Shown piece after piece: positions 2,988-46,134 of a stretch of DNA of 64,000 bases. The notes beneath the pieces were generated by a model. The model did no database searches, was not told the DNA's origin, and saw only the letters and a list, made by a program, of their open reading frames with translations. The DNA is from Phycisphaerales bacterium (lineage in GTDB: Bacteria > Planctomycetota > Phycisphaerae > Phycisphaerales > SM1A02), in assembly GCA_014238785.1 (NCBI GenBank), contig JABAAL010000022.1:62001-126000 (forward strand), in the 5' to 3' direction. How positions within the stretch are numbered: the stretch's first letter is position 1; each line of letters starts with the position of its first letter. The translations under genes and the position numbers were made by a program.

Positions 2988-3338
2988 TTACTCTATACCC
3001 TCAAATGCTGCGTGAATTTCAACCACACTCGGTAGTCCAGAACTCCAGTTTCTACAACTGACGCTTCCGTTTTTGGCGGACGGCACGCCGAACAAATCCC
3101 TCCCATTTACCAAAATAGTCGGTGCTCCCCAACCAAGCCGCGAATCTGAATTTGCAAGTCCCATTAAGTCTACGTCAACAATTTCCATATTTGGTTCCGC
3201 TTCCACTAATCGCTTGCGCAATTCTGGCGTATTGGGACAGCCCTCAAATCCGAGGAATTCAATGTGCATTGAAGATGTACAGGATGTAGCCATAAGGAAA
3301 AGGGCGGGTATCGTAATATGTAGTGATTGCGCTAACAT
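2988..3338 (-). CDS. small lipoprotein with a thioredoxin-like fold, function unknown
   Basis: 116 residues. A signal peptide ends in a lipobox (LMATSC), followed by MHIEFLGFEGCPNTPELR, which resembles the start of small thioredoxin-fold proteins with one cysteine near the first strand. A later GAPTILVNGRDLFG segment matches the cis-proline and strand typical of that fold. The second cysteine of a CxxC pair is absent, so disulfide exchange is doubtful; metal or thiol binding is possible. It is directly followed by the M50 protease gene. Confidence 0.55.
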   Translation of the reverse strand: MLAQSLHITIPALFLMATSCTSSMHIEFLGFEGCPNTPELRKRLVEAEPNMEIVDVDLMGLANSDSRLGWGAPTILVNGRDLFGVPSAKNGSVSCRNWSSGLPSVVEIHAAFEGIE

Positions 3339-3364
3339 CTTATATAGCGTACGCTGCCTATCTC

Positions 3365-3970
3365 ATGTCTGCTGAAAGTACCATCCGAACCGACGAAGAA
3401 CTTTTAGCAGCCCATATCGAAGGAGATTCTGGCGCTTTTTCAGAATTAATGGACCGATATAAAAATGACTTATTACATTTCCTCATCCGCTTTGTGGGCT
3501 CTACAGCGTCCGCTGAGGACGTTTTTCAAGACACCTTTCTCCAAATTCACATTTCGGCTGAAACATTTGACCCCTCAAGGCGATTTAAACCGTGGCTTTT
3601 TACAATTGCAGCGAACAAAGGTAGGGATTGGCACCGTAAGCACTCAAAGCGAACAGTATTGTCACTGTCGCAAGATATTGGTGGGGACGGTGAAGGCACA
3701 CGTTTCATCGACCTTATGGAAGCGGATCAGGAATTGCCCGATGCAACATTACTCGATAGCGAACAAAAAGACAGCATACGAAACACCGTCGATGAACTTC
3801 CAAGTCACTTGCGGGAGATTCTCTTGCTGAGTTACTTCCAACAAATGAGTTACGTGCAAATTGCAGATTCCTTGCAAATACCACTTGGTACTGTAAAAAG
3901 TAGATTGCACGCCGCCGTCGCTGCATTCGGTCAATCATGGCAAGCAAGCAACAGTGAGGAAGATTCATGA
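3365..3970 (+). CDS. ECF-type RNA polymerase sigma factor
   Basis: A 201-aa sigma-70 family factor with region 2 (GAFSELMDRYKNDLLHFL, then SAEDVFQDTFLQIH) and region 4 (LREILLLSYFQQMSYVQIA and IPLGTVKSRLHAA, a helix-turn-helix). I chose the ATG at 3365, since the family normally begins shortly before the acidic stretch; an upstream ATG at 3323 would add 14 unlikely residues overlapping the divergent gene. The next gene overlaps by four bases (ATGA) and encodes a single-span protein, the usual sigma/anti-sigma arrangement. Confidence 0.93.
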   Translation: MSAESTIRTDEELLAAHIEGDSGAFSELMDRYKNDLLHFLIRFVGSTASAEDVFQDTFLQIHISAETFDPSRRFKPWLFTIAANKGRDWHRKHSKRTVLSLSQDIGGDGEGTRFIDLMEADQELPDATLLDSEQKDSIRNTVDELPSHLREILLLSYFQQMSYVQIADSLQIPLGTVKSRLHAAVAAFGQSWQASNSEEDS

Positions 3971-4854
3971 GCAATGGCTTCGACCATCTTAAACTTTCCA
4001 AAGCAGATGCAGAAATGCTCGACCAACTTGTTGATGTTGGGTTTGAACTCGATCAACTGGAATACATTTCTCCAGAAGACACACAAAGAGCAAAATCTAT
4101 TCTTAAGATGCTCGGTTTACTCGAGGCGTATCCGGTGGAAGATGCCTCTGACACGCTTATCGATGCAACAATTGCGCGCATTGATCAATACGAAGCAAAG
4201 CGTTCTGCTCGAATGCAAATACATACACCAGAATTTGAAACAACAAGTCGCGGTTTCCGAATCCGCATGCCCGACCTTATTAGTGTTGCGGCAATGGTTC
4301 TTGTTATGTTCGCGGTTTTTGCAACGATCAGTAACAGCACACGGAATCAAACGATTAGCAACGAATGCGCAACGAACATGGCGATGGTTGGACGTGGTCT
4401 TTTTAATTATGCAAGTGATCACAACGGAAATACTCCAACCGAGCAAGCAAGTGAAGTCGCTTCCTTATTTGGCGGGCTTATTCCAGAGCGTACCGATGCA
4501 GAAGTATTGGCCACGGAAGGATACTGCGAACATAGCCACTTGAATTGTCCTGGCCATGGCGGTGAAGGTCGCGGCTTTAGTTACCAAACACAGCCAGCGG
4601 CAATGTGGGATGAGATTCGCAGTAATGGGAACGTGATTATTATTATGAGTGACCAAAATCCTGTCCTCAATAAAATGCTCACAAATCAAGAATTCGATCC
4701 ACTCACCCCGTCCCCAACGCATGGTGCGCTTGGCCAGAACCACCTCCGCGACGATGGTTCGATTGCCTCAGGAGCTGCTCCAGTTATTGGTGGTGATTTA
4801 ATATGGATTCTCGACAACTCAAACGGCGGTATCGACATCTTTTTGACGCATTAA
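3967..4854 (+). CDS. probable anti-sigma factor with a prepilin-like extracytoplasmic domain
   Basis: 295 residues: a soluble N-terminal part (about 1-100), one transmembrane helix (about 103-121) and an extracytoplasmic C-terminal domain. Four-base overlap with the ECF sigma gene supports a role as its membrane-bound partner. There is no HxxxCxxC zinc anti-sigma motif in the N-terminal part. The C-terminal domain (HGALGQNHLRDDGS) recalls the His-to-Asp-Gly end motif of planctomycete prepilin-like proteins, so it may be a sensor built from a pilin-type fold. The function is inferred from context. Confidence 0.6.
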   Translation: MSNGFDHLKLSKADAEMLDQLVDVGFELDQLEYISPEDTQRAKSILKMLGLLEAYPVEDASDTLIDATIARIDQYEAKRSARMQIHTPEFETTSRGFRIRMPDLISVAAMVLVMFAVFATISNSTRNQTISNECATNMAMVGRGLFNYASDHNGNTPTEQASEVASLFGGLIPERTDAEVLATEGYCEHSHLNCPGHGGEGRGFSYQTQPAAMWDEIRSNGNVIIIMSDQNPVLNKMLTNQEFDPLTPSPTHGALGQNHLRDDGSIASGAAPVIGGDLIWILDNSNGGIDIFLTH

Positions 4855-4860
4855 CGGATG

Positions 4861-4889
4861 TTTTCATGTGTTCCCAATTCTGCTACACT
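4861..4889 (+). promoter_or_regulatory. promoter of rpmI-rplT
   Basis: A -35-like TTTTCA (4861-4866), a 17-base spacer and an extended -10, TGC-TACACT (4881-4889), 25 bases before the rpmI start codon. The -35 matches four of six consensus bases. Confidence 0.5.
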
Positions 4890-4913
4890 ACGACGCTCAA
4901 TTGGAGTAATTCT

Positions 4914-5126
4914 ATGCCAAAGTTAAAGTCACATAAAGCACTCTTGAAACGCGTTCGCATCACTGCTAGCGGCAAAGTGAAGATTCGCCGAGCATTCGGC
5001 GGCCACCTTCGCAGCCATAAATCAGGCAAATTGATGCGATCATACAGTTCGCCCAACTATGTTGGTAAGGCGGACATTAAGCGTATTTCAGCAATGCTTA
5101 AAATGCGAGTAAAGCCAAGCAAGTAA
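4914..5126 (+). CDS. rpmI: 50S ribosomal protein L35
   Basis: 70-residue L35, very basic, with the family start MPKLKSHKALLKRVRITASG, the central RAFGGHLRSHKS and the end RISAMLKMR. The start at 4914 is fixed by the conserved N-terminus; an in-frame ATG at 4803 lies inside the preceding gene. It is followed by rplT as in most bacteria, but infC, which usually precedes rpmI, is not in this position. Confidence 0.95.
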   Translation: MPKLKSHKALLKRVRITASGKVKIRRAFGGHLRSHKSGKLMRSYSSPNYVGKADIKRISAMLKMRVKPSK

Positions 5127-5142
5127 ACGAATCCAAAATAGA

Positions 5143-5159
5143 CCAAACGTTATGTTTGG
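5143..5159 (+). promoter_or_regulatory. hairpin in the rpmI-rplT spacer
   Basis: CCAAAC and GTTTGG form a six-pair stem with a five-base loop. It is not followed by a T-run, so it is not a terminator. In other bacteria L20 binds the mRNA around rpmI-rplT to regulate its own synthesis; whether this stem takes part is unknown. Confidence 0.3.
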
Positions 5160-5220
5160 CGGGCCGAAGTGTTTGACATGCTGTTAAACCCCCGTCCAGA
5201 CGAAATAAAGGAGGCAACAC

Positions 5221-5592
5221 ATGCCACGCGTACGAAAAGGTGCTGCTCGAAACAAGGCACGAAAAAGATTATTAAAAGCCGCTCGCGGTTACTGGGGAAC
5301 AAAAAGTCGTCACAAGCAACAAGCAAAGGTAGCACTTACTCGTGCTGGTCAATTTGCGTACCGCGATCGTCGTGCACGTCGCCGCGACTTCCGCCGAATT
5401 TGGATTACTCGAATCACTGCTGCGTGTCGTATGCGCGGCACTCGCTACAGCAGATTCATCAATGGTTTGTCAAACGCGGGCATTCTTCTTAACCGTAAAA
5501 TGCTGAGCCAAATGGCAATCGAAGATCCAAAGGCATTTGACCAACTCGTCAAAATGGCTGAAGAAAAAACAACTGCTCAAGCGAGCAAGTAA
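5221..5592 (+). CDS. rplT: 50S ribosomal protein L20
   Basis: L20 is needed for early 50S assembly. The 123-aa product has the classical start MPRVRKGAARNKARKR, the helix AARGYWGTKSRHK, then YRDRRARRRDFRRIWITRI and the globular end FINGLSNAGILLNRKMLS. AAAGGAGG lies close before the ATG. It is cotranscribed with rpmI. Confidence 0.97.
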   Translation: MPRVRKGAARNKARKRLLKAARGYWGTKSRHKQQAKVALTRAGQFAYRDRRARRRDFRRIWITRITAACRMRGTRYSRFINGLSNAGILLNRKMLSQMAIEDPKAFDQLVKMAEEKTTAQASK

Positions 5593-7711: not shown

Positions 7712-7755
7712 GGTTGGCATAGTATCAGAAGGGCGCTTGTTGTACTCTACCTACT

Positions 7756-8985
7756 ATGCAAACATCAACTATCCTTCCCAACATGGGACTATCTGACCGA
7801 GCAAAATCAATCCCGCCATCAATCACCCTCGCCATTGGTGCGAAGGTGAAAGAACTCAAAGCCGCAGGGTGCAAAGTCATAGCTTTTGGTGCTGGAGAGC
7901 CAGACTTTGCTACACCGGATAGGATTTGCGATGCAGCAATTCAAGCGTTGAAGTCTGGTGTGACACATTACATGCCATCTGCAGGCACACCCGAAGCGCG
8001 CGAAGCAATTGCAGATAAATTGCGTACCCAAAACAATATCGATTGTACGCAGGCTAACATTACGATTAACGCTGGTGCAAAGATGTCGATTAACTTGGCG
8101 CTGATGTCCATACTTGATCCCGGAAAGAAACAAGAAGTCGTAGTACCAACTCCTGCTTGGGTGAGTTACAAACCAATGATTGAACTTGCAGGTGGCAAGA
8201 TGATCGAAGTCCCAACTTCTGTGGGAACAGATTTTAAGTGTACACCCGAAGAAATAGAAGGAGCGATTACGCCAAACACAAAAGCAATCATGCTCAACAC
8301 GCCGAGCAATCCGTGCGGGACGATGTACACGCCCGATGAGTTACGAGCGATCGCAAAAATGATGGAGCGACACCCAGACATTTATATATTGAGCGATGAG
8401 ATTTACGAACGATTAACTTATAGCGACATCGAACATTTATCTTTGGGTTCTATTCCAGAAATAGCAGGACAGGTCATTACGATTAACGGTTTGTCAAAAG
8501 CGTATGCTATGACTGGTTGGCGAGTGGGGTACGTATGTGCCCCAGAGCCAATAGTTAAAGCGATGAACACGTTACAAAGCCAAATAAACTCTTCGATTAC
8601 GAGTTTTTGTTATGCGACGATACCTGTGGCACTTGGCATGAACGACGAAGTGGAATCGATGCGACAAATTTTTGCAAAACGCTCTGCGCTCATGTTTGAA
8701 CTCATTCAAAAGTGGCCAAACGTCGAGTGTGCGAAGCCAACGGGCGCTTTTTACACTTTCCCGAAAATTTCGTATTACTTTGGCAAGACTTCGCCAGCGG
8801 GAACCAAAATTACCGACGCAGTTTCTTTTGCGAGTGCATTACTTGATGAAACAAGTGTTGCGGTAGTACCGGGCACGGACTTTGGCGGCTGTGGCCCCGA
8901 TCACATGCGCCTCTCGTTCGCTTGCTCAGAAGATCAAATCGAAGAAGGTGTCACCAAAATCGGCGACTGGTTAGCAAAATTTTAG
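7756..8985 (+). CDS. class I aminotransferase, aspartate aminotransferase-like
   Basis: PLP-dependent fold-type I aminotransferase, 409 aa. Visible signatures: FGAGEPDFATPD at the substrate loop, NTPSNPCGTMY, LSDEIYERL, the PLP lysine in NGLSKAYAMTGWRVGY, and the C-terminal arginine in HMRLSFACSE. It is closest to the AspC/AatA branch (aspartate and possibly prephenate). The ATG has no Shine-Dalgarno sequence; a -10-like TACTCT ends seven bases before it. It is divergent from prfB. Confidence 0.9.
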   Translation: MQTSTILPNMGLSDRAKSIPPSITLAIGAKVKELKAAGCKVIAFGAGEPDFATPDRICDAAIQALKSGVTHYMPSAGTPEAREAIADKLRTQNNIDCTQANITINAGAKMSINLALMSILDPGKKQEVVVPTPAWVSYKPMIELAGGKMIEVPTSVGTDFKCTPEEIEGAITPNTKAIMLNTPSNPCGTMYTPDELRAIAKMMERHPDIYILSDEIYERLTYSDIEHLSLGSIPEIAGQVITINGLSKAYAMTGWRVGYVCAPEPIVKAMNTLQSQINSSITSFCYATIPVALGMNDEVESMRQIFAKRSALMFELIQKWPNVECAKPTGAFYTFPKISYYFGKTSPAGTKITDAVSFASALLDETSVAVVPGTDFGGCGPDHMRLSFACSEDQIEEGVTKIGDWLAKF

Positions 8986-33848: not shown

Positions 33849-33878
33849 TTGAGAATGTCGAAAAATGTCGCGTATGAT
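33849..33878 (+). promoter_or_regulatory. promoter immediately before the LON-domain gene
   Basis: TTGAGA (33849-33854), an 18-base spacer and TATGAT (33873-33878). The -10 ends eight bases before the ATG at 33887, so transcription should begin at or next to the start codon. There is no Shine-Dalgarno sequence. Confidence 0.55.
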
Positions 33879-33886
33879 TTACTGTC

Positions 33887-34576
33887 ATGAGCGAACAAGT
33901 TTCAGTCCAATTTAAGCAAGAGTTTCCTGTCATTTCATTACCAGAAACTCTGCTGTTGCCTCACGCTGTTATGCCTATTACGGTTACGGAACCACGATAC
34001 TGCCAACTCACAGATCAGGCCCTTGATTGCAGCGGTCAAGTTGCTCTAGCATCGATGGAGAACCGTGATATAGGAGAGACTACTTCTGAACTTAGAAAAA
34101 TTGTTTGCATCGGGCAAATTGTTCAGCATGAAAAGATTGAAGGCGGATACAACATTTTGCTTTACGGCCTTTGCAGAGCTGAAATAATTCGTGAAAATCC
34201 TGCAAACGAAGAGCGTTTATATCAAACAGTAAAACTACGCCCCATCGAAAATGATGATGAGGAAGACGATGAACTTGAGATGTATCGAGTCGAATTACTT
34301 CATTACATGTTTCGCCCAAACATGGAGCGATTAGAACAAAACAGAATAATTTTAGACTGGATTTCAGGAGTTGATTTATCTATTTCTGCGCTGTTTGAGT
34401 TGGTTGCTTGTACGATATTTACCGACTCGGAGTTTAAGTACGCCTTGCTTGCAGAACCATCAATCGAGTCTCGGTGCTTGATGGTACTTAAAGAGTTAGA
34501 AAAACTAGATGTCGCAATATCGATGACCGACAAGCAATCACAAAATAGATGGAAAAAGGGAATTTCCCTTAACTAA
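33887..34576 (+). CDS. stand-alone LON substrate-binding domain protein
   Basis: 229 aa matching the N-terminal domain of Lon protease (FPVISLPETLLLPHAVMPIT; the VCIGQIVQHEKIEGGYNILL strand pair; GLCRAEI), with a helical tail. There is no ATPase or protease part. Such single-domain proteins are common in bacteria and their role is not established; substrate recruitment is a guess. The next gene begins two bases after its stop. Confidence 0.82.
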   Translation: MSEQVSVQFKQEFPVISLPETLLLPHAVMPITVTEPRYCQLTDQALDCSGQVALASMENRDIGETTSELRKIVCIGQIVQHEKIEGGYNILLYGLCRAEIIRENPANEERLYQTVKLRPIENDDEEDDELEMYRVELLHYMFRPNMERLEQNRIILDWISGVDLSISALFELVACTIFTDSEFKYALLAEPSIESRCLMVLKELEKLDVAISMTDKQSQNRWKKGISLN

Positions 34577-34578
34577 AC

Positions 34579-35133
34579 TTGCGGTTGGTTCTTGAACATC
34601 ATTGGCTAACATTAATGGTGGTTGGCGCAATCGGCTTTGTATTTTTGTGGATTGGATTACGTGAAAATCTCTTTGCTCGGGTAAAAGTTGGTGCTGCGAT
34701 ACTAGTAGTCGCTGTACTTTTATTTTTCACTGGTTTATTAACGGTTACTCCAACAGAGCATGCAAAAAAATTAATATCTGGATTTGTACAAGCTGCGGTC
34801 AATGAACAGATTGACGAGGCGCTGGTATTTCTTAGTCCTGAAGTTATTATTGTCGACGATTGGAGGGGCGAGTCACGCTCAGGGCATGCTGGGATTAGAA
34901 AAAGTCTAGAGGCACTCTATAGAAAACACACATTGTCGTATAACACAATTCTAAGAATGGAAATATATGAGCGTCAACATGATGTACTAACTGAATTATC
35001 GATGTTTACACGAGTTTCCAGAATTGGTTCAGTGCCTTCGAGGTGGCGTATATTGGCGCGAGAGCAACCCGAGGGTACATGGTCGATTTATTCAATCGAT
35101 GCGGTCGAAATTGCTGGAAGATCCTATCGATAA
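34579..35133 (+). CDS. small membrane protein with an NTF2-like domain
   Basis: 184 aa from a TTG start two bases after the LON-domain gene. Two N-terminal transmembrane segments (about 10-25 and 33-50) are followed by a ~125-residue domain whose pattern (VQAAVNEQIDEALVFLSPEV, HAGIRKSLEALYRKH, RWRILAREQ) resembles NTF2/SnoaL-type folds. An ATG 39 bases downstream is an alternative start. The function is unknown; it is probably cotranslated with the gene before it. Confidence 0.6.
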   Translation: MRLVLEHHWLTLMVVGAIGFVFLWIGLRENLFARVKVGAAILVVAVLLFFTGLLTVTPTEHAKKLISGFVQAAVNEQIDEALVFLSPEVIIVDDWRGESRSGHAGIRKSLEALYRKHTLSYNTILRMEIYERQHDVLTELSMFTRVSRIGSVPSRWRILAREQPEGTWSIYSIDAVEIAGRSYR

Positions 35134-35173
35134 GTAAGACGAAGTGAATCTTCACGGCTGTTACAATGCGGAA

Positions 35174-36046
35174 ATGTCAAAAATTTGGATTGATGGAAAG
35201 TTTGTAGAGTCCTCTGAGGCTAAGGTAAGTGTGTTTGATCATGGCCTGCTTTATGGAGACGGTTGCTTTGAGGGCATCAGGATTTACAACGGTCGTATTT
35301 TAAAATTACGCTCGCATATTGTCCGTATGTTCGAATCAGCTGCGGCGCTTCGATTGCAACCTGGACATTCCATCGATGAAATGGAAGAGATAGTTCGCGA
35401 AGCGGTTGCGGTCAACGAACAGAAAGACGGGTACATTCGTCTTGTCTTTACCAGAGGCAAAGGTACTCTTGGCCTAAATCCATTTTTATGCCCAACTGCT
35501 ACGGTCTTTGTAATTGTTGAGAGCATAAAACTGTACCCAGATGAAATGTACGAAGATGGCATGTCGATTATTGTCGCGAAGCGACCCCGAGTACCAAAGG
35601 AATGCCTCGATCCGCAAGTTAAAAGCTTGAATTATCTAAATAATATCCTTGCAAAGATTGAAGCGATTGACGCAGGTGTGCTTGAAGCCCTGATGTTAAA
35701 TCAAAACGGTGAAGTTGCAGAATGTACTGGCGACAATATTTTTGTAATTAAAGAGGGCAAGATTGCAACGCCGCCAACATCGGCGGGGATTTTGCACGGC
35801 ATTACAAGGCGCCTTGTCATTGATGAAATTGCGCCGGCATTAGAGTGCGAAATAGAAGAGAGAAAAATATCACTTGAAGAAGTGTTCGACGCTGACGAAG
35901 TATTTTTAACCGGGACTGCTTGTGAAATAATCGGCGTGAGCCATATCGACAACAAAGTAATTGGATGCGGTAAGGTTGGCGCAATTACACACGGGTTTGA
36001 AGATCAGTTTCGAAAAATGATGTCTGAAGGTGCGCCAGAGGATTAG
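35174..36046 (+). CDS. ilvE: branched-chain amino acid aminotransferase
   Basis: A fold-type IV PLP aminotransferase, 290 aa. Signatures: MSKIWIDGKFVESSEA, VFDHGLLYGDGCFEGIRIY, the PLP lysine in DPQVKSLNYLNNILAK, EVAECTGDNIFV and VFLTGTACEI. The family also contains D-amino acid aminotransferases, but the EGIR and YLNN motifs fit IlvE. TACAAT with an extended TG (TG-T-TACAAT) ends six bases before ATG 35174 and no Shine-Dalgarno sequence is present. Confidence 0.92.
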   Translation: MSKIWIDGKFVESSEAKVSVFDHGLLYGDGCFEGIRIYNGRILKLRSHIVRMFESAAALRLQPGHSIDEMEEIVREAVAVNEQKDGYIRLVFTRGKGTLGLNPFLCPTATVFVIVESIKLYPDEMYEDGMSIIVAKRPRVPKECLDPQVKSLNYLNNILAKIEAIDAGVLEALMLNQNGEVAECTGDNIFVIKEGKIATPPTSAGILHGITRRLVIDEIAPALECEIEERKISLEEVFDADEVFLTGTACEIIGVSHIDNKVIGCGKVGAITHGFEDQFRKMMSEGAPED

Positions 36047-36054
36047 CATTATTT

Positions 36055-37032
36055 ATGCGATGCAAAGCGTGTGATTACGATCTTTGGCATTGCACTGGGC
36101 GAAAGTGCCCCGAGTGCGGCTCACAATTTACACTGGCAGAATATGAATTTGAAAAAAATTCGATATTGTTTCATTGCCCACACTGCGATCATGGAGTTGA
36201 AGGGTACGGTGAGGCAGGCAAGCCATTCATGAGCCTTACTCAATGTGCGGTGTGCGGACTAGAAGTCAATCACGAAACGTTTATTATTCGTCCAAAACCG
36301 GGCACAGACGTTTCATCATTTGGTTCATTGCTGCCAATTCGATTGAAGAATGGCAATTGGTTTGCAAGATATTTTTCAACAGTGTGGCTCATAATGACGA
36401 GACCGCAAACAGCAATTAGTCGAGTTCCAGTACAAGAACCACTTTTGGTTGCATGGAAATTCATGCTTACCTCATTGCTTATTACAGCAGTCGCTTGGAT
36501 ATTACCAACGGCGTTCTTCTTTGTAGTTGGGAGTATTACAAGTTCAAGTATTTCTGACACCCTTGTAGTACTCGCTTTTTCTTTGTTGCAATTCTTTATC
36601 GTTTTTTCCCTTGTTGCTTTGTTTGCCATTTCTTGGGCACTATTGGCGCATGTATTACTGCAGATAACGGGCGGTAGTACTTTCACGATTCGCCGTACTG
36701 TGCAAGCGGTGCTCTATGGCGGCGCCACTTCGATAGTCGGAATTGTGCCGTGCCTTGGTAGTATTGCAAGTTTTATATGGTGGATTATTGCAACGACGAA
36801 TATGATTACAAGGGGGCAACGAGTTAGCGGTGGCAGGGCATCATTTGCAACATTACTAGGATCAATTTCGTTCTTTATTTTTGTATGTGGAGGGTATGTT
36901 TTGTTGATAATTGCAGTAACCGCTCCTTTAGCCGCAACAGCTCGTGCACGCGCTGCTGTACGACAGCAACAAATACAACAGCAACAGCAGCCAGAACTGG
37001 AATCGCCTAAAGAAGAACTTCTTATTGAGTGA
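36055..37032 (+). CDS. zinc-ribbon membrane protein, Yip1-like
   Basis: 325 aa. Two treble-clef/zinc-ribbon motifs at the N-terminus (CKACDYDL with CPECGSQF; CPHCDHG with CAVCGLEV) are followed by four or five membrane helices in the pattern of Yip1-family proteins, and a Gln-rich C-terminal tail. The function is unknown. It starts eight bases after ilvE and its end overlaps the end of mqnC on the other strand by 11 bases. Confidence 0.65.
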   Translation: MRCKACDYDLWHCTGRKCPECGSQFTLAEYEFEKNSILFHCPHCDHGVEGYGEAGKPFMSLTQCAVCGLEVNHETFIIRPKPGTDVSSFGSLLPIRLKNGNWFARYFSTVWLIMTRPQTAISRVPVQEPLLVAWKFMLTSLLITAVAWILPTAFFFVVGSITSSSISDTLVVLAFSLLQFFIVFSLVALFAISWALLAHVLLQITGGSTFTIRRTVQAVLYGGATSIVGIVPCLGSIASFIWWIIATTNMITRGQRVSGGRASFATLLGSISFFIFVCGGYVLLIIAVTAPLAATARARAAVRQQQIQQQQQPELESPKEELLIE

Positions 37033-38410
37033 CTGTTAAAGAAACAGTATTTAAAGAAACAGTATTGCAATCGGAAGTGTGCGAAACAAGTCGTTCCTTT
37101 TCTAATGCCGACCAATCGGTGACGAGTTTGTCAGGCGAGTTTTCGCCGTCATGAATTGAAAGGATGTCGTAGCGATTGTCTCGCTGAGCCGGCGTGAAGC
37201 CCGCTTCGCGAATAATGCGGCAAATTTTAGCCTCATCAAGGCAGTAGGTTGTACCCGCAGCACTTACAACATTTTCTTCAACCATCACGGAACCCATGTC
37301 GTTTGCACCGTAAAACAATGCTGTTTGTCCAATTGCTGGTCCCATTGTGACCCAACTTGAACCAATGGAGTACACGTTGTCGAGGAACAATCGGCTTAGG
37401 GCTTGCGTGCGTAAGTAGGAACTAGAACCTGCATAACGTACTTGTCTTCCGAACGCTGCACATGCAGATTTTTTGCCAGTGCCATCCAGTTTTGCAACTA
37501 CATCCCCGGGGAAAATTTCTGAGTCATCATTTGATGGAATCCACTCAGGGACTTTTCCAAGTGGCGAGTTTTCGGGTTGGAACGGCCACGATATAAATGC
37601 TTTGTATCGCCCGCCACCGGAGAAACCAAAGTCTGCGATGGAATTATCTTGCCATGTGCGGACCAAATCCATGTGATGGACGCGGTCGGCGATGCCTTCA
37701 ATATGCCCGAACATCATCGTTGCGCTTGTGTTCATGCCCAGTTCATGGGCAACGCGCATGACCGTGAGCCATACCTCTGCGTTGCATTTACCGAGACCAA
37801 TTTTCTCGCGCACTGCTGGTGCAAAAATTTCACCACCGCCACCGGGGATAGAGTGTAGGCCAGCTTCTTGGAGTTTTGTAAGTACCCAACGTATTTGCTC
37901 TTCAAGTGTATTTCCTGGAGTGTCAAAAAAGTTTACGAACTCAATAATTTCAGGCGGACTGAAAGCATGTACATGAAGTAGTGGAAATTTTTCGCGAATC
38001 AGGTTGAGCAACTCAACATACCATTCAATAGGCAAATCAGGATTCATGCCACCTTGCATTAATATTTGTGTTCCACCGATATCAACAACTCCCTGAATCT
38101 TTTGAAGGAGTGCATCGTATTCGAGTGTATAGGCATCTTCTTCGTCGCCATCTCGTCGAAAAGCACAGAAAGTGCATTTAGCGGTGCAAATATTCGTGTA
38201 ATTAATATTTCTATCGACGATGTACGTACGAATATGATCGCCATGGAGGGCACGGCATCTCTTGTCAGCCCAACGACCAAGTTCAAGCAGGGGCATTTCG
38301 TTGTAAAGCGCCAAGGCTTGCTCAGGTGTAATGCGCAAGTTGCCCTCAGCGACATCTTGTAAGACTAGCGTGTCAAAAATATTTGCAGTTGGTGCAGACG
38401 AAATTGCCAT
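37022..38410 (-). CDS. mqnC: cyclic dehypoxanthinyl futalosine synthase
   Basis: A radical SAM enzyme of futalosine-type menaquinone synthesis. The cluster motif CTAKCTFCAF follows RNINYTNI, and GGTQILMQGGMNPDLP is typical of MqnC rather than MqnE. At 462 aa it is longer than most relatives (~370), with an insertion around GDVVAKLDGTGKKS. The frame extends to 38464, but the homologous part begins just after ATG 38410, which has TATAAT six bases before it. The FTCD-like gene ends 14 bases upstream on the same strand. Confidence 0.9.
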   Translation of the reverse strand: MAISSAPTANIFDTLVLQDVAEGNLRITPEQALALYNEMPLLELGRWADKRCRALHGDHIRTYIVDRNINYTNICTAKCTFCAFRRDGDEEDAYTLEYDALLQKIQGVVDIGGTQILMQGGMNPDLPIEWYVELLNLIREKFPLLHVHAFSPPEIIEFVNFFDTPGNTLEEQIRWVLTKLQEAGLHSIPGGGGEIFAPAVREKIGLGKCNAEVWLTVMRVAHELGMNTSATMMFGHIEGIADRVHHMDLVRTWQDNSIADFGFSGGGRYKAFISWPFQPENSPLGKVPEWIPSNDDSEIFPGDVVAKLDGTGKKSACAAFGRQVRYAGSSSYLRTQALSRLFLDNVYSIGSSWVTMGPAIGQTALFYGANDMGSVMVEENVVSAAGTTYCLDEAKICRIIREAGFTPAQRDNRYDILSIHDGENSPDKLVTDWSALEKERLVSHTSDCNTVSLNTVSLTVTQ

Positions 38411-38424
38411 TTCGAGATTATACC

Positions 38425-39027
38425 CTAGCAGCCATCTTCGATGGTTTTGCAGAGCAATTGGCACTCTGAAAGCAGAGAGGTCGTTTTATTCTCGAGAGAA
38501 ATACGTTTCTGGTCGTCCTCTAACTGAAGCAAGTTGATTTCAACGTTGAGCCGCGCCGATCTTGCTGCTGCTTCTGCAAGAATGGCGGCAATTACTATAT
38601 CGCTTACGAGCATTGCATTTGTCTTACCGATGAGAGTTTGAATCGTTACAAGAATACGGTGACTGAGTTCCATTGTCTTCATCGGAACTGCAATTGCATG
38701 TTGAAGTGCATCGTCCCAAGAGGCAATTCGAATGGGGTCGTCTTTTTCGAGTTTCCAGAGCGAATTCATTGCTTCGTATGCTTTGGCATCTTCACCTGCC
38801 AGGGCAATCGATTCTTCTGATGCGGCTCTTAAAAAAGAAATACATTCATCGTGCAACTGTTTGTGCTGTACGTATTTCTTTTTTCCATCGGTGTACGCAA
38901 GAACCATCTGGCCAAGAGACGTTGAGAGTGCCGCCAAAAGTCCCGCAACTGCTCCGCCTCCGGGCGTTGGCTGTTTTGCAGCAAGCGCAGCAAGAAACTC
39001 GTTGACGGATTGCGTTCCAATATGCAT
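38425..39027 (-). CDS. cyclodeaminase/cyclohydrolase family protein
   Basis: A 200-aa helical protein of the FTCD C-terminal family (formiminotetrahydrofolate cyclodeaminase or methenyl-THF cyclohydrolase FchA). The conserved TPGGGAVAGLLAALSTSL is near the N-terminus, with SDIVIAAILAEAAARSARLN later. The ATG shares its A with the pheT stop (TGATG), so translation is coupled. Folate substrate is inferred from the family. Confidence 0.85.
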   Translation of the reverse strand: MHIGTQSVNEFLAALAAKQPTPGGGAVAGLLAALSTSLGQMVLAYTDGKKKYVQHKQLHDECISFLRAASEESIALAGEDAKAYEAMNSLWKLEKDDPIRIASWDDALQHAIAVPMKTMELSHRILVTIQTLIGKTNAMLVSDIVIAAILAEAAARSARLNVEINLLQLEDDQKRISLENKTTSLLSECQLLCKTIEDGC

Positions 39028-41048
39028 CACGATCGAATCTCCGCAGAGAATGTAGTTGTAAGCATCTCAATAGCCTTCGTTGCCGGCCCGTTCACTTCGT
39101 CGTGGGTGAGTGTTCGCTCGCTGTCACGGAATCGGAGTTTCAACGTTAATGATTTTTTGCCGTTCTCGATGTTTTTGCCTCTAAAAGTAGTGACAAACGA
39201 TACGTCTTCTAGGTGATCGATGTTCAACCCGATAAGTGCATTTTCGATTGCAGACCACTGTACCCCTTCATCGAGAATGAGTGAGAGGTCACGCTCGATT
39301 GCGGGTTGTTTTGGGAGTGGGTGCGACTGTACCTCTGGTGGATACGAAGCAAGCAATTCCCCGAGATAGAGTTGCGCAATATGCATCGTGTTTGGAAGAT
39401 TCCAACTCTTTTGTACCGATGTTGCAAGACGACCAACTCGACCTATAACAGTATCACCAATGAGAACATCGCCACCTGGTTCAAGCCACGGCGCGTTTTC
39501 ACTGAGATTGATCGAAACAGCGTTTGTTGCAGTAAGTAGATTACAGACGCGATCGATGACTCCTCGGATTTCACTAATTGCATCCTCTTCACTGGCGTCC
39601 ATTACAAGTGCAAGTTCGGTACGTTCGGAGTGCGAATCGCCTTCAAGCGCAAAGACCGAACCAAGTTCAGCAAGGCGAAGATGTTTCACGCCGTTGTCTT
39701 CGTTGTGTTTTCGTACGGTGAGTAAACTTGGAATGAGGGAGGGTCGTAGTGCAGGCTCCGCTGCAGCACGATCATCATCAATTGTGAGGGGCGTTTGTCC
39801 ACTGCATAAGAATTGCTCTGCTGCCTTTACTGAAACGAGGGAATGCGTGACACACTCAATGAATCCCATGCCCGCAAGGGAGTCTAAAATCACTTGCCTC
39901 CCCGCAGCTTCGCCGCCAGAGTCGGGTACTCTCACTTCTATAGAATCTTCGATGGCAATTTTTTCGTACCCGTGTACACGTCCAACTTCTTCGACAAGAT
40001 CAATTTCACGGTGGATATCGCCACGGAAGTAGGGGACGGTTGCAGAGACAACACCCTCGTTACAAGTTGCTTCAAAACCGACGGATAGTAAATGCTCTGC
40101 AATCAAATCATCAGAGATTTCGTTGCCTAATCGTTCTCTGCAATAGTCCGTACGCATATTGACAATAATTGGTTCTGGCAATGGTTTGCCATCGATAAGA
40201 ACGCCCTTGCAGAGTGTGCCTCCACCGACTTCAAGTAGGATGCCCGCGAGCCTGTCAGCACATGGTGCAACCTGTCTAGGACTTACACCTCGCTCAAATC
40301 GAAAACTGGAATCGCTTGCTATATTGTGTCGCCTACTCATTTCACGAACGATGACTGGGTCAAATGTTGCTGATTCGATGAGTATATTTTTTGTATCTGT
40401 TGTTACGGAAGTGTCGGCTCCACCCTTGACGCCAGCAAGGGCAACTGGTTTTTCTGCATCTGCGATAACAAGATCGTCGGTGGTTAATTTGATTGGCGTT
40501 GCATCTTCACCCAGTGGCAAAAAGGTTTCGCCATCGGTTGCTTTTCGCACGATGATTTTCCCCCCAGCAAGCTTGTCAAGGTCGAATACATGTGTCGGTT
40601 GGCCGTGTTCAAAAAGCACGAAGTTCGTTGCATCTACTACGGCGTTGCGTGGAGTATCCCCGCGATTTTCGATTTTGTTAGCGAGCCATGTTGGCGATTC
40701 TTTGACATCAACGCCTAGAATAACTCTTGCTGTATACAGTGGGCAGAGATCTTTTTCGTTGTTTTCGATTGATGTTGTTTCTTCAATAGGCGAGCCGCTC
40801 TCGTCCACAGCGTTGCTGGGTATACACAATTCATTATCCGTTCTTGCGGCTATTTCTCTCGCCAGACCTATGTGGCATGTGCAATCTCCACGATTTGAGG
40901 TCATCTCAAAATCTTGCCGAACATCACCATCTTTCAAATCATCCCGCCCTTCAAGGGGAAAACCAGCGGCGGTGAGCAACTCAGCCTGCTCTTCTGTGGA
41001 AACATTGTTTTTTAAATAGTCATTAATCCAGTTTGTAGTTACCAACAT
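39027..41048 (-). CDS. pheT: phenylalanyl-tRNA synthetase beta subunit, lacking the EMAP/OB domain
   Basis: 673 aa, against ~800 for the usual bacterial protein. After the first ~40 residues the sequence goes directly to DFEMTSNRGDCTCHIGLARE, so the tRNA-binding EMAP/OB domain that normally fills residues 40-150 is missing. The B3/B4 editing region (RGDTPRNAVVDATNFVLFEHG), the B5 domain, the class II core (SFRFERGVSP) and the C-terminal anticodon-binding FDX-ACB domain (AIERDLSLILDEGVQW) are present. pheS is not in the window. A TATTCT ends six bases before the ATG with no Shine-Dalgarno sequence. Confidence 0.93.
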   Translation of the reverse strand: MLVTTNWINDYLKNNVSTEEQAELLTAAGFPLEGRDDLKDGDVRQDFEMTSNRGDCTCHIGLAREIAARTDNELCIPSNAVDESGSPIEETTSIENNEKDLCPLYTARVILGVDVKESPTWLANKIENRGDTPRNAVVDATNFVLFEHGQPTHVFDLDKLAGGKIIVRKATDGETFLPLGEDATPIKLTTDDLVIADAEKPVALAGVKGGADTSVTTDTKNILIESATFDPVIVREMSRRHNIASDSSFRFERGVSPRQVAPCADRLAGILLEVGGGTLCKGVLIDGKPLPEPIIVNMRTDYCRERLGNEISDDLIAEHLLSVGFEATCNEGVVSATVPYFRGDIHREIDLVEEVGRVHGYEKIAIEDSIEVRVPDSGGEAAGRQVILDSLAGMGFIECVTHSLVSVKAAEQFLCSGQTPLTIDDDRAAAEPALRPSLIPSLLTVRKHNEDNGVKHLRLAELGSVFALEGDSHSERTELALVMDASEEDAISEIRGVIDRVCNLLTATNAVSINLSENAPWLEPGGDVLIGDTVIGRVGRLATSVQKSWNLPNTMHIAQLYLGELLASYPPEVQSHPLPKQPAIERDLSLILDEGVQWSAIENALIGLNIDHLEDVSFVTTFRGKNIENGKKSLTLKLRFRDSERTLTHDEVNGPATKAIEMLTTTFSAEIRS

Positions 41049-41083
41049 TGCTGCAGAATAACTCTTTATGGCGCGGGGGAAGT

Positions 41084-41460
41084 CTATTTTTGAGATTGAT
41101 TATGAAGCTTTTTGCGTCTCTTTTGTGTTAGACCTAGCGTGAGAGTTGTAAGGATAATAATGAGCGTGCTGGCATACGTAGAAAATTGAATTGTGTGCGC
41201 AAAGCTAAATACAATAACTGTAAACCAAGCAGCGCTTAGACCTATCAGCGAAGGGGAATTTCGTACACATTGTATGGAACGCAGTAAACCAAGGGATGCG
41301 AATGCAAACATCAGGGCAATTCCAATAAGTCCTTGTTCTATTGCTGTTGCAAGCATGGTGGAGTGAGGTTCTGGAGTGATAAAACCCTCAACATCGGTGC
41401 CTGGGGTATTTGTCCATAAATTAAGTAAAACAAGTCCTAAGTACCGTGCTGTGTTGCTTA
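41084..41460 (-). pseudogene. remnant resembling the C-terminus of an O-antigen ligase-like membrane protein
   Basis: About 125 codons encode three or four membrane helices with NTARYLGLVLLNLW, EGFITPEPHSTMLATAIEQG and LIGIALMFAFASLGLL, a layout like the HN-containing loop and following helices of Wzy/O-antigen ligase proteins. The open frame runs on to 41842, but the part beyond ~41460 is antisense to a convincing lipoprotein gene and has no membrane character. It has no credible start of its own, so I read it as a 5'-truncated relic. Confidence 0.4.
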
Positions 41461-41481
41461 AGAGTAGGTATTCTGCGTGGA

Positions 41482-42081
41482 ATGTTACGGCTTCAACGTA
41501 TCGTCTTTTCAATTTTGTTGGCACTCCTGTTTGCAGGATGTACCGCAAACCCTCCCGTGACCGATCCGCTGTCGGTTGCTCCCAATGATTTTTCACTTGA
41601 TGTGACTGTCGTAACCACAGAACCACACACGCTTGCACATATGAGATCGTCAAGGTTTGTTGTTTTTCCAGATGGAGCGCTGCACCATGGCGATGAAGAT
41701 GGTTGGGGACCAAACACACTTCCAGCTCGAACGCGCTTGCTCTCAAGGGAGCAAATCGCAAAGATATGGATGCGTCTTGATCAAATGGGAATGGCATCTT
41801 CAGCCAGAGCGGATGAAACTGTGAATTTTCAACTACTTCCAAGACCCAAAGATGGCTCTGTGTATATGATCGCGGTCAACAGCGAGGGTGAATATTGGAA
41901 TTTCATTCGGTACATTGGAAGCGACAAGCCAGCAGACACCGAATTTAAAAGTCTCATTCAACTACTCGCTGACTACGCTTGGTCGACTGATCAGCCTGAT
42001 GTTGAAGGGTACGAAGAACCAATTCGATACAACCTTGGAGGCAATCCATACGAGCGTTACTCTCAAGGCGAAGTTCCGTGA
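41482..42081 (+). CDS. lipoprotein of unknown function
   Basis: 199 aa with a clear lipoprotein signal (IVFSILLALLFAGC). The mature part has VVFPDGALHHGDEDGWGP and LSREQIAKIWMRLDQMG, a layout also seen in the next lipoprotein (a Gly-rich beta segment followed by a helix beginning with ...EQ), so the two are probably paralogues. ATG 41482 is used because the signal peptide begins there. The next gene overlaps by four bases, and a carbonic anhydrase gene follows. Confidence 0.7.
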   Translation: MLRLQRIVFSILLALLFAGCTANPPVTDPLSVAPNDFSLDVTVVTTEPHTLAHMRSSRFVVFPDGALHHGDEDGWGPNTLPARTRLLSREQIAKIWMRLDQMGMASSARADETVNFQLLPRPKDGSVYMIAVNSEGEYWNFIRYIGSDKPADTEFKSLIQLLADYAWSTDQPDVEGYEEPIRYNLGGNPYERYSQGEVP

Positions 42082-42554
42082 GATCGGTTTGCTATGCATG
42101 TCTTGCATTGTTCTTAGGTTGTCAACAACCATATCGGGGTACTTTATTGCAATTAGAAATGGTCGCACCTCAACAAGCAGTGCTAATAAAAGTTGAAAAT
42201 GAAAAAACAGTTTCGTATGGTGGTGGCATCAATGCAGTCGAAGGCAAAACGACATGGAGTGGCGAACTGGGCGAAGAGCAACAAAAAAAATATGTCTCAT
42301 TAGTCGATGATACGGCTTGGGCAACAGCCTCGCAGAGAAACGATGATTCTGTTGGTTCTGGTCACTATAAAATTCGCATTCGTACTAACAACTATGTTAC
42401 TAAAAAATTCACCCTTTCTTTAACAGACAAGAAAGCAACGTCACTGTATGATTTTTTAATGAAAGTGGCTGATTCTCGTTTTGAGAAACATATAGAATCG
42501 TTGCCAAAACCCAATATGGATGTGATTATTGATAGGAAGTTGAACCAAAAATGA
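42078..42554 (+). CDS. lipoprotein of unknown function, paralogue of the preceding one
   Basis: 158 aa from a GTG inside GTGA, overlapping the previous stop. It has a short lipoprotein signal (ACLALFLGC). The mature part (VSYGGGINAVEGKTTWSGEL, then EEQQKKYVSLVDDTAW) parallels the preceding lipoprotein in order and spacing. The function is unknown. It overlaps the carbonic anhydrase gene by four bases. Confidence 0.68.
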   Translation: MRSVCYACLALFLGCQQPYRGTLLQLEMVAPQQAVLIKVENEKTVSYGGGINAVEGKTTWSGELGEEQQKKYVSLVDDTAWATASQRNDDSVGSGHYKIRIRTNNYVTKKFTLSLTDKKATSLYDFLMKVADSRFEKHIESLPKPNMDVIIDRKLNQK

Positions 42555-43105
42555 CTCCAGAATTAGCGCTCCAAAATCTCCTTGAAGGAAACAAAAGGTA
42601 CGTAGAGGGATGTCTCACTTCAAATAATTTGCCAGAAAATCGTTCGATACTCGCGAAAGGTCAAGCCCCCATTGCATCAATAATTCGCTGCTCCGACTCG
42701 AGAGTGGCACCCGAAATTGTTTTTGATCAGCCGCTTGGTAGGTTATTTGTATGTGGTGTAGCGGGTAATATCCCAACGCCTGAGATTATTGAAAGTCTAG
42801 AGTATGCAATGAACCACCTCGGCGTTTCACTCATTGTCATCATGGGACACACATCATGCGGCGCAATCAGTGCAGCCTTGCACAACGAATTTGTAGATGG
42901 ATTGTTTGCACAAATTGCGCTCTCGCCGAATCCCGATCCGGACGAATGTGCTGCGCACAATGCTGAGCAGGGGATTTCGACAATTTTGGGAAGTTCTATA
43001 CAGATAGAAGAGGCAGTAAAAAACGGTTTCGTTCAAATTGTTGCTGGCGTTCAGGATATTGCCAGCGGTGAATTTGATTTGGTTGCGCAAACTCAGTTGA
43101 ATTGA
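42551..43105 (+). CDS. beta-class carbonic anhydrase
   Basis: 184 aa, interconverting CO2 and bicarbonate. The zinc ligands are in IIRCSDSRVAPE (Cys and Asp/Arg dyad) and GHTSCGAISAAL (His and Cys). There is no signal peptide, so it is cytoplasmic. It is the last gene of a three-gene coupled operon with two lipoproteins, an unusual association. Its stop overlaps the next, opposite gene by 13 bases. Confidence 0.93.
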   Translation: MTPELALQNLLEGNKRYVEGCLTSNNLPENRSILAKGQAPIASIIRCSDSRVAPEIVFDQPLGRLFVCGVAGNIPTPEIIESLEYAMNHLGVSLIVIMGHTSCGAISAALHNEFVDGLFAQIALSPNPDPDECAAHNAEQGISTILGSSIQIEEAVKNGFVQIVAGVQDIASGEFDLVAQTQLN

Positions 43106-43488
43106 TTTTTATCAGCACCGAAGAAGCCAACCTTTATTCCATTTTCTCTGAGGTACCGCGTTGCTCGCGTGTTGACAAGAACCAGCACAATAATGCCGAA
43201 GCAGGGGATCAAACAAAGCAATCCATTGATGACTCCAAGGATTGTTGAGTTGTAGACATTTGCGGCAAGTAAAATGATGAAGATAAATGCTGCGAAGTTG
43301 GTGATGTAATACAAGGTTGAGGGGATGTCATATAACTCGTGGTTAAAAATGGAAGCGTCACCGGCATATAGATCGTATGCTCCCATCAATACGAAGATAA
43401 TCATGAGACCGATACAAAGAAGCAGTTGCTGCTGATTGACAGCGATTCGTTTAAGTCGCGTTTCATCCGTGTTTCTAAATAGTGTCAT
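43093..43488 (-). CDS. small integral membrane protein, unknown
   Basis: 131 aa with three or four hydrophobic segments (IGLMIIFVLMGAYDLYAG, NFAAFIFIILLAANVY, LGVINGLLCLIPCFGIIVLV) and a basic C-terminus. AAGGAGG stands eight bases before the ATG, one of the best ribosome binding sites in the window. No family recognised. Confidence 0.65.
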   Translation of the reverse strand: MTLFRNTDETRLKRIAVNQQQLLLCIGLMIIFVLMGAYDLYAGDASIFNHELYDIPSTLYYITNFAAFIFIILLAANVYNSTILGVINGLLCLIPCFGIIVLVLVNTRATRYLRENGIKVGFFGADKNQFN

Positions 43489-43578
43489 GGGTCATCCTCC
43501 TTAGCCTAAGTAAATACTAGTAGAAAAAACAATACCCCCTGAGTTCCAAATTAATTCAATGTAATTACCTATGGTGTT

Positions 43579-44154
43579 TCACTCGGTGGAATGCAGAAGA
43601 ATGTCAATACGGTCGGTAATTTCGGGCGCAAGAGGCTCAACTCTCGAACCAAAAAATGCAACAGGCGTACCATTCTTGTCAATCAAGTATTTGCCGAAGT
43701 TCCATTCAGGCAGGGCGCCCGTTGCGCTGAGGAGATCACCATACAAAGAGCATTGAGCATCACCTTCTGTCACGCTTACTTTTTCCATAATCGGAAACGT
43801 TGCGCCGTATCCCGTGGCGCATGCAGTAATAGTTTCTGCATCGCCCGGTTCTTGACCGCCAAAGTCATTGCATGGAAAACCAACAACCGAAAAGCCTTGC
43901 GACGCATATCGTTCATAAAGAGCTTGGAGGTCTCCGTATTGCGGGGTGAGCCCGCACTTACTTGCAAGGTTTACAACGAGCGTAACTTTTCCATTAAAGG
44001 TGTTCTTATCAACTGGATTGCCATGCAAATCGTTGAAAGGGTGGTCGTAAATATTCATAGCGGTATCCTTTTGAACAGGCACATCAATAATTCTAGAGTC
44101 GCAGGAGGTCAACATTGCAAGTAGCGATGTAAATAGTGCGTATAATTTATTCAC
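43579..44154 (-). CDS. lipoprotein glutathione peroxidase
   Basis: 191 aa. A lipoprotein-type signal (LLAMLTSC) precedes the GPx fold: LVVNLASKCGLTPQY with the peroxidatic cysteine, GFPCNDFGGQEP with the conserved Gln, and WNFGKYLIDKNG with the Trp/Asn. It has Cys, not Sec. Envelope location suggests protection of lipids from peroxides with thioredoxin-like reductants. It overlaps the thioredoxin-fold gene before it by eight bases. Confidence 0.9.
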   Translation of the reverse strand: MNKLYALFTSLLAMLTSCDSRIIDVPVQKDTAMNIYDHPFNDLHGNPVDKNTFNGKVTLVVNLASKCGLTPQYGDLQALYERYASQGFSVVGFPCNDFGGQEPGDAETITACATGYGATFPIMEKVSVTEGDAQCSLYGDLLSATGALPEWNFGKYLIDKNGTPVAFFGSRVEPLAPEITDRIDILLHSTE

Positions 44155-45181
44155 CAGTTTGCATCTTAGTCTTTATCGGTGGAAGCAGCGCATCAATCGA
44201 TTTGTCCAGTAATTGAAAGTCATTATTTTCTTGTGCAAACTGTTTTTCTTCACTTGGGAAAAGTACAGGGCCCGGATGCACAAACCGCACGATTCCTTCT
44301 TTGTCAATGAGGATAGAAAAAGAAGTTGCTGGGCGTTTCCCAGATTTGAGCCACCATTTTTTTAATTGCGACCAATCACCGTCGATGACAACTTCGCCGT
44401 TAAACTGGCGGGCATTTGCCAGCGTTGCCACCTCTTCTTTTGTTATAGTTTTCGATGGTGGTTTTGGGTGATATACACCAACAACGTTTAATCCACGGTT
44501 TTTATATTTTTTTCGTAATAACTCTAGTGCGGGCAAACTCGCTTGGCAATGCGGGCATGTATCTGTCCACCAACGGTACAAGGTAAGTGGAGCGGAGGAT
44601 TCGCCAAAGGCAGGTTTTTTCAATTTGGTTCCAACAAGTTCTTGACCACCACGGTTACTTGGAAGAAGTTCATACGCAGGCTCATCGATAAGCATGTTGA
44701 GTAAATCCTCTCCTTGCTTTACTTGCAATTGAAAACCATTAAATCGCACGATGCCTTGCTTGTCAATCAATACTGTCCAAGGTGTGCCGCCACTTCGATA
44801 CGTGCGCATAAGTGGGGATGGCGTTCCGGAAGCTCCGTCGTGACCAACTGGAATATCCAATCCAAATGAAATCACATCAGCAAGGGCTCGTTCCTTTGTA
44901 TTTGTACTAAAACCTTCAAAGACAGTTTGTATAGCAATGAAATTTACTTCAGGAAATTCCTTTTTCATTTTTTTCAATGTCGGAAATCCGTGGCTATGAC
45001 ACCCGGGACACCACGACTGGAAGAAGAAAAGATAGTTCACCATTCCTTTTTTAATTGTTGGTGTGACATCATTGTTGGTGTGTATCCATGCAACATCCCG
45101 AAGCGTTGGTGCTTCTTTGCCCACGATCCCTCTTACAGGCGTTTGTAAGGCAATCACTACACAAAGTACTTGAAGAAACAT
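44147..45181 (-). CDS. exported protein with two thioredoxin-like domains
   Basis: 344 aa with a short signal peptide. Domain 1 (about 20-165) has FQSWCPGCHSHGFPTL, domain 2 (about 185-330) has RWWTDTCPHCQASLPAL; both are TlpA/redoxin-like and both have a strand ending in VLIDKQGIVRF or ILIDKEGIVRF, so one is a duplicate of the other. Likely a periplasmic thiol reductant or oxidant, possibly the electron donor of the glutathione peroxidase encoded in the overlapping next gene. TTGAAC-17-TACAAT ends six bases before its ATG, with no Shine-Dalgarno sequence. Confidence 0.87.
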   Translation of the reverse strand: MFLQVLCVVIALQTPVRGIVGKEAPTLRDVAWIHTNNDVTPTIKKGMVNYLFFFQSWCPGCHSHGFPTLKKMKKEFPEVNFIAIQTVFEGFSTNTKERALADVISFGLDIPVGHDGASGTPSPLMRTYRSGGTPWTVLIDKQGIVRFNGFQLQVKQGEDLLNMLIDEPAYELLPSNRGGQELVGTKLKKPAFGESSAPLTLYRWWTDTCPHCQASLPALELLRKKYKNRGLNVVGVYHPKPPSKTITKEEVATLANARQFNGEVVIDGDWSQLKKWWLKSGKRPATSFSILIDKEGIVRFVHPGPVLFPSEEKQFAQENNDFQLLDKSIDALLPPIKTKMQTGE

Positions 45182-45187
45182 ATTTGT

Positions 45188-45237
45188 ATTGTACCCTCAC
45201 TGTGACTTGAGTTCAAAAGCAAAACTTGAATTACAAT
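45188..45237. promoter_or_regulatory. overlapping divergent promoters, both predicted leaderless
   Basis: Minus strand: TTGAAC (45216-45211), 17-base spacer, TACAAT (45193-45188), then six bases to ATG 45181. Plus strand: TTGAGT (45207-45212), 19-base spacer, TACAAT (45232-45237), then six bases to ATG 45244. The two -35 hexamers overlap, so the divergent genes may compete for polymerase. Neither gene has a Shine-Dalgarno sequence. Confidence 0.55.
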
Positions 45238-45243
45238 GCTTAC

Positions 45244-46134
45244 ATGCGTATTTTTGTCACAGGAGCAACGGGGTTGCTTGGAAGAAGAGTGGTTCAAGCA
45301 CTTTGCTCCAAGGAACACGAAGTAATCATTGTCTCTCGAAATGCAACACGTGCATACGAACACTTCAATAACGCTTCACTGGAAATACTCGAAGCAGATG
45401 TCACGCAGCGGGGCGATTGGCAAACAGTCGCAAGCGAGTCTGATGCAATTGTGCACCTTGCTGGGGCGGGCATTGTTGATCAAAGATGGACGAAATCATA
45501 TAAAGAAGTATTGTTAACGAGTAGAATCGAATCAACGAAACATGTAGCGGAAGTGGCAAACAAAATTTTGGTGTGTGCAAGTGCTGTTGGATATTATGGC
45601 GATTGCGGAAACCAAGAACTCACGGAACAAGACCCCGCGGGAAATGATTTCCTTGCAAGGTTGTGTAGTCAGTGGGAGGCAGCCGCGCAAAGTGCAAACG
45701 GAAGAGTAGTGAACTTGCGATTTGGAATGATTCTTGACAAACAGGGCGGCGCTTTGGCAAAAATGTTGCCGTTGTTTCGACTAGGTCTTGGTGGCCCCGT
45801 TGGTAGCGGCAAGCAATATTGGCCTTGGATTGCCCAGCAAGATGCCTGCAATGTTGTGCAAGAGGCATTGCATCAAGATTGGGAAGGTGTAATCAACGTT
45901 GTGGCACCCGAGCAGTTGACGAGCAAAGAATTTGCGCGAACACTTGGACGAACCATGAAGAGAACAGCATTTTTCAAAGCCCCCGCATTTGCATTGCGAA
46001 TAATAATTGGAGAAGGAAGCCAGGTGTTAACAGTGAGCCAGCGCGTGAAACCAAGCGTGCTTCTTGAGAAGGAATTCCAATTTCAATTTCCATCATTAAA
46101 AGATGGCATAGCAAACAACTTGAAGCAATGTTGA
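45244..46134 (+). CDS. NAD(P)-binding epimerase-like protein, YfcH family
   Basis: 296 aa, an extended SDR of the TIGR01777 type. The Rossmann motif is MRIFVTGATGLLGRRV, then AIVHLAGAGIVDQRWTK, ASAVGYYGDCG and the C-terminal DUF1731-like end (PAFALRIIIGEGSQVLTVSQRV). The substrate is unknown; some relatives affect cell division. An upstream ATG at 45226 lies before the likely transcript start, so 45244 is preferred. Confidence 0.88.
   Translation: MRIFVTGATGLLGRRVVQALCSKEHEVIIVSRNATRAYEHFNNASLEILEADVTQRGDWQTVASESDAIVHLAGAGIVDQRWTKSYKEVLLTSRIESTKHVAEVANKILVCASAVGYYGDCGNQELTEQDPAGNDFLARLCSQWEAAAQSANGRVVNLRFGMILDKQGGALAKMLPLFRLGLGGPVGSGKQYWPWIAQQDACNVVQEALHQDWEGVINVVAPEQLTSKEFARTLGRTMKRTAFFKAPAFALRIIIGEGSQVLTVSQRVKPSVLLEKEFQFQFPSLKDGIANNLKQC

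Follow-up and report, generated by a model that had tools for sequence, protein, structure and literature searches.

-10 boxes 6-8 nt before start codons point to leaderless mRNAs in a marine planctomycete of the Phycisphaerales

The window, a stretch of 64,000 nt, is part of a 1.81-Mb, 47-contig Phycisphaerales genome (Planctomycetota) of a small-genome marine planctomycete, whose PheT shares 71-83% identity with proteins of Phycisphaerae/Planctomycetota MAGs. GC content and genome size had suggested Actinobacteria, an origin rejected on the strength of these pheT loci. The same-genus comparison covered 12 further genomes. Several genes in the window, on both strands, are preceded by a hexamer resembling a -10 box that ends 6-8 nt before the ATG (spacers written as N6 to N8; Table 1). 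Seven such hexamer-spacer-ATG strings had been reported in the initial annotation, all of which are present at the coordinates and on the strands claimed, and the start codons given for the seven genes are correct, as alignments with orthologues from 2-13 related genomes begin at residue 1 with the same codon. The list itself was incomplete, since the same layout is found at prfB (ATG 7711, minus strand), at the lipoprotein gene that starts at 41482, and at further genes of the window. Two -35 hexamers named with it, TTGAGA-N18 and TTGAAC-N17, are indeed in the sequence but show no conservation across orthologues.

Table 1. Promoter-like hexamers and the genes that follow them in the window
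Feature	Position	Strand	Distance	Gene and remarks
-10 TACTAT	7719..7724	-	N7 to ATG 7711	prfB (RF2), 7711 to 6604
-10 TACTCT	7743..7748	+	N7 to ATG 7756	class I/II aminotransferase, 7756-8985
-35-like TTGAGA	33849..33854	+	18 bp from -10 of 33887 gene	unconserved in orthologues
-10 TATGAT	33873..33878	+	N8 to ATG 33887	Lon-substrate-binding-domain protein, 33887-34576
-10 TACAAT	35162..35167	+	N6 to ATG 35174	branched-chain aminotransferase, 35174-36046
-10 TATAAT	38417..38422	-	N6 to ATG 38410	MqnC-like radical SAM, 37022-38410
-10 TATTCT	41055..41060	-	N6 to ATG 41048	PheT, 39027-41048
-10 TATTCT	41469..41474	+	N7 to ATG 41482	lipoprotein, 41482-42081; one-time divergent partner of pheT
-10 TACAAT	45188..45193	-	N6 to ATG 45181	thioredoxin-fold protein, 44147-45181
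-35-like TTGAAC	45211..45216	-	17 bp from -10 of 45181 gene	unconserved in orthologues
-10 TACAAT	45232..45237	+	N6 to ATG 45244	TIGR01777 epimerase, 45244-46134

The boxes recur in orthologues. The TACAAT of the branched-chain aminotransferase gene is identical in 6/6 distinct orthologous sequences and the TATTCT of pheT is kept in 10/10, and TANNNT is kept in 7/7 orthologues of the MqnC-like gene, whose TATAAT comes immediately after the upstream gene's stop codon, and in 5/5 of the thioredoxin-fold gene. For the gene of the Lon-substrate-binding-domain protein, TATGAT stands at N8 in L006-L008 and TATCAT at N10 in L005. One version of the start model described below preferred 7783 as the start of the aminotransferase at 7756, which was settled by orthologues: TAC[TC]CT-N7 is found in 13/13, followed by ATG in 12 and by TTG in one. 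Across a conservation set of the seven genes first annotated plus glyA (59 distinct upstream sequences), mean pairwise identity is 0.84 in the -10 hexamer, 0.50 in the spacer, and 0.46 in the 30 nt upstream, and TANNNT at N5-9 is kept in 58 of the 59 as the flanking sequence drifts. Two sets of the genes diverge from each other, those at 45244 (plus) and 45181 (minus) with 62 bp between start codons, and prfB and the 7756 gene with 44 bp, a distance of 44-45 bp in 13/13 genomes.

Some further features of these genes and their neighbors were observed along the way. The prfB gene carries a +1 frameshift at TGA 7639-7637, with the standard site CTT-TGA-C in 13/13 genus genomes (L129-L141), and simple ORF callers would choose GTG 7650 as its start. 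An internal Shine-Dalgarno (SD)-like element of prfB is reported to be almost universally conserved (PMC12421855); no such AGGGGG element was found before the frameshift site in the 13 genus genomes, where the slip context is ccgtgactctcttTGAC. PheT, at 673 aa, lacks the N-terminal domain, its alignment beginning at profile position 162 of 798, and the relatives align over equal length. Positions 2988-3338 (minus) and 3365 (plus) form a candidate divergent leaderless pair with 26 bp between ATGs, in which the start of the plus-strand gene is uncertain. Upstream of 33104 (plus), a conserved CGATACACT (CGATAAACT in one relative) lies ~17-18 nt before the ATG, which suggests a short-leadered promoter beside the leaderless ones.

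The same arrangement is found well above chance in the genome. Over the whole genome there are 46 instances of TAYAAT-N6-ATG, compared with 23 of the N12 equivalent and 16 of the reversed pattern, a control that inflates the excess somewhat, for which reason the N12 spacing control was added. An unsupervised start model with two motifs, begun from random initial matrices and covering 738 genes called in 842 kb (47% of the genome), yielded a first class, with ~33% of the weight, defined by a -10 box (TA.aAT; spacing N6.37, N7.21, N8.15), and a second class, with ~58%, defined by a weak SD motif (aaGGAg). The comparison with shuffled upstream regions that the initial annotation had proposed came out clearly on the side of the motif, the log-likelihood gain being 444, whereas shuffles averaged 74 and never exceeded 101; likewise, 147 genes have a posterior > 0.8 for the -10 class (TA-class genes hereafter), a number that averaged 41 in dinucleotide shuffles and peaked at 57. 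As a control for circularity, starts were also picked by coding score alone, blind to the motif. Before the resulting 530 ATG starts, TANNNT is found 52, 27, and 22 times at N6, N7, and N8, compared with a mean of 9.6 per other spacing further upstream (p ~ 3e-26), such that 101 cases of TANNNT-N6-8-ATG stand against 29 expected, an excess of ~72 genes or 14%. Estimates for the share of genes of the predicted leaderless type run from about 15% on a conservative count to 33% by model weight, the latter being model-dependent and the above-background estimates being about 14-15%. A spacing profile of the whole sequence without gene calls shows a modest N6 peak (15 vs ~5 in 464 kb), modest because most ATGs are non-starts.

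The absence of an SD sequence before such starts, claimed from the window, holds at this scale: an SD-like 4-mer precedes only 9/147 TA-class genes compared with 223/308 SD-class genes, a partly circular comparison, and the upstream sequences themselves agree. The -35 element is weak in this class, with TTGACA matched at >=5/6 at a spacer of 18 in 4/62. The 3' end of the 16S rRNA is GGATCACCTCCTTTC, and its anti-SD is intact, and thus leaderless and SD modes coexist in this organism. When 200 kb of Escherichia coli K-12 went through the same pipeline, no -10 class was found, only SD-like or unrelated weak motifs; the Phycisphaerales genome G126 (67% GC, 400 kb) gave a -10 class of 23% with N6 at.53. 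By the crude measure of N6 against N12 counts, the -10/ATG signal is widespread yet patchy. Across the order, with the own genome excluded, the hand-summed counts are 415 vs 91, and among other families of the class they are 521 vs 221 (f10), 482 vs 513 (f19), and 244 vs 252 (f23). A phylum sample gave 79 vs 9 in family f42 and no N6 excess in two larger f43 genomes or in f55.

Operon position, which was kept out of the training of the start model, separates the two classes. TA-class genes make up 5% of the genes lying <10 nt behind a same-strand neighbor, 28-30% of those 10-79 nt behind one, 25% of widely spaced divergent genes, and 52% of divergent genes with <80 nt between starts (all divergent genes vs same-strand genes at <10 nt, Fisher p = 1.8e-19), and the trend is opposite for SD-class genes. 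Their scarcity behind abutting genes and abundance in tight divergent pairs match what is predicted for promoters that abut start codons.

The tightest pairs appear to share one symmetric promoter region. Divergent pairs with 15-30 bp between starts number 7/114 in the sample. Across most of the genus, 26-27 bp separate the start of pheT from that of a divergently oriented lipoprotein gene. The interval is built around AGAATAGCTATTCT, with two TATTCT boxes back to back in a palindrome measuring up to 26 bp. An insertion parts the two genes in the window (about 41069-41466) and in the near relative L004 (about 2543-5406), where it is larger and holds long ORFs; the shorter insertion in the window is possibly a remnant. 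After the insertion, pheT of the window retains TATTCT-N6-ATG and the lipoprotein gene retains TATTCT-N7-ATG, and the fact that each gene kept its own box after this natural separation supports both boxes as functional. For glyA and its divergent partner, 21 bp lie between the ATGs in 10/12 genomes compared; in the eleventh, the ATG was anchored two codons off by the script and the 21-bp layout is identical by eye, and the twelfth (L112) yielded no long reading frame for a partner. The partner protein differs in two of these genomes. TAGAATA/TATTCTA is common to 10/12 glyA intergenic regions, with the -11 and -7 positions (-11A, -7T) pairing reciprocally. The folP gene and its partner likewise have 18-21 bp between starts wherever the pair is kept. 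As a separate observation, the palindrome upstream of pheT (L050, L055, L060, and others) continues past the -10 boxes with arms that differ yet are still symmetric (CCACGC/GCGTGG vs GGTA/TACC), which suggests selection for symmetry or templated mutation.

Taken together, shuffle controls, operon context, conservation in orthologues, the negative control in E. coli, and the second Phycisphaerales genome support the leaderless reading put forward initially. We assign a probability of roughly 0.88 to the view that -10-driven promoters 6-8 nt before the ATG give rise to leaderless or near-leaderless mRNA and that SD sequences are used inside operons. Judging from the DNA, a considerable minority of genes very probably produce messages that open with the AUG, with no ribosome-binding leader ahead of it. 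From the motif, spacing, context, and conservation, all directly observed, we infer the transcription start, the lack of a leader, and the mode of ribosome binding as follows. The promoters would be of sigma70 type, with the -10 box, 6-8 nt before the start codon, as the only strong element and the -35 element weak or absent. The distance from the -10 box to +1 is usually 6-7 nt, and therefore N6 would make the A of the ATG the +1 position; transcription would begin at this A or within about 3 nt of it. The ribosome would then recognize the 5'-terminal AUG without SD pairing, like TA-led genes of other bacteria, and operon-internal genes would rely on a weak SD sequence instead. Leaders of 0-3 nt, or additional upstream promoters, are possible. 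Where leaderless genes diverge, their promoters could merge into one symmetric -10 region with 18-27 bp between start codons. More tentatively, at chances slightly short of even, leaderless initiation may have allowed two promoters to be fused, in this lineage, into a single ~20-bp symmetric element between the start codons of glyA, folP, and pheT and their partners, with expression physically coupled and the spacing held genus-wide; the coupling, if true, would arise because RNA polymerase occupies one orientation at a time.

Among other explanations, the one that fares best, improbable as it is, holds that the hexamers are real for some transcripts and that most mRNA comes from promoters farther upstream, its leader being read without SD pairing, either with the help of S1 or by being unstructured. 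The genome does encode ribosomal protein S1-type repeats, including a 633-codon ORF with six of them, and several of these genes have same-strand upstream genes 14-60 nt off. Against this, an upstream promoter in the tight pairs (glyA, 21 bp; folP, 18-21 bp) would have to sit within the opposite gene, and upstream sequence drifts as the -10 box and its distance to the ATG stay constant. It is very unlikely that AT-rich or low-structure composition before starts merely mimics -10 boxes: such biases do precede non-SD genes in many bacteria (PMC5397173), but here the hexamer is defined and conserved relative to its flanks, its spacing peaks sharply at N6-N8, dinucleotide shuffles gain far less, and E. 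coli through the identical pipeline yields no such class. Equally far-fetched is the idea that the palindromic or conserved hexamers are repressor operators, for although the pheT/lipoprotein palindrome reaches 26 bp and its arms vary between species and stay symmetric, AGAATANNTATTCT occurs just once or twice per genus genome and is absent from the genome of the window, where pheT nevertheless keeps TATTCT-N6-ATG, and the remaining genes have in common only the -10 consensus and spacing.

Read as leaderless starts, these genes resemble a known kind. Leaderless genes have been predicted in 207/953 bacterial genomes (Zheng et al. 2011, PMC3160421), with TA-led genes in Actinobacteria, Deinococcus-Thermus, Aquificae, and other groups, among which Planctomycetes are not named. 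Like those TA-led genes, the ones described here have TANNNT ~12 bp before the start and no SD sequence, occur alongside SD-led genes, and prefer non-distal operon positions; the middle bases of the -10 box are informative (TA[CT]aAT), as the same study reports for medium-GC genomes. Symmetric bidirectional promoters are also known from the Grainger laboratory (PMC10268837; also PMC12825309), including an 18-bp class with divergent transcription start sites 18 bp apart and reciprocally paired -11 and -7 positions. The glyA TAGAATA, readable on both strands with -11/-7 reciprocal pairing, resembles this class in its pairing. Unlike in those promoters, it is two start codons, not merely transcription start sites, that lie 18-27 bp apart here, and both transcripts are apparently leaderless coding mRNAs. 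For Planctomycetes, PMC5397173 includes one species with a positive signal that its authors ascribe to leaderless mRNA and/or S1, and Phycisphaerae stand at 46 in the antiSD table of PMC10783764. The low SD use seen here is like that of the non-SD Planctomycetes genes in these two sources, which, in the portions available, give no resolution at the level of single leaderless genes or of spacing within Phycisphaerales. A literature search combining leaderless with Planctomycetes or Planctomycetota returned nothing closer, which is weak evidence as subscription journals were largely uncovered. Gene starts of this kind are known elsewhere; for the present lineage, no report of them was found in the literature searched.

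With this finding, leaderless gene expression would reach a lineage of marine planctomycetes that is mostly uncultured, and the annotation of start sites there improves. The genome also offers testable cases of divergent intergenic regions that leaderless starts, together with shared symmetric promoters, have reduced to ~20 bp. As a lineage with both modes side by side and an intact anti-SD, it can help to address the timing and causes of declining SD use.
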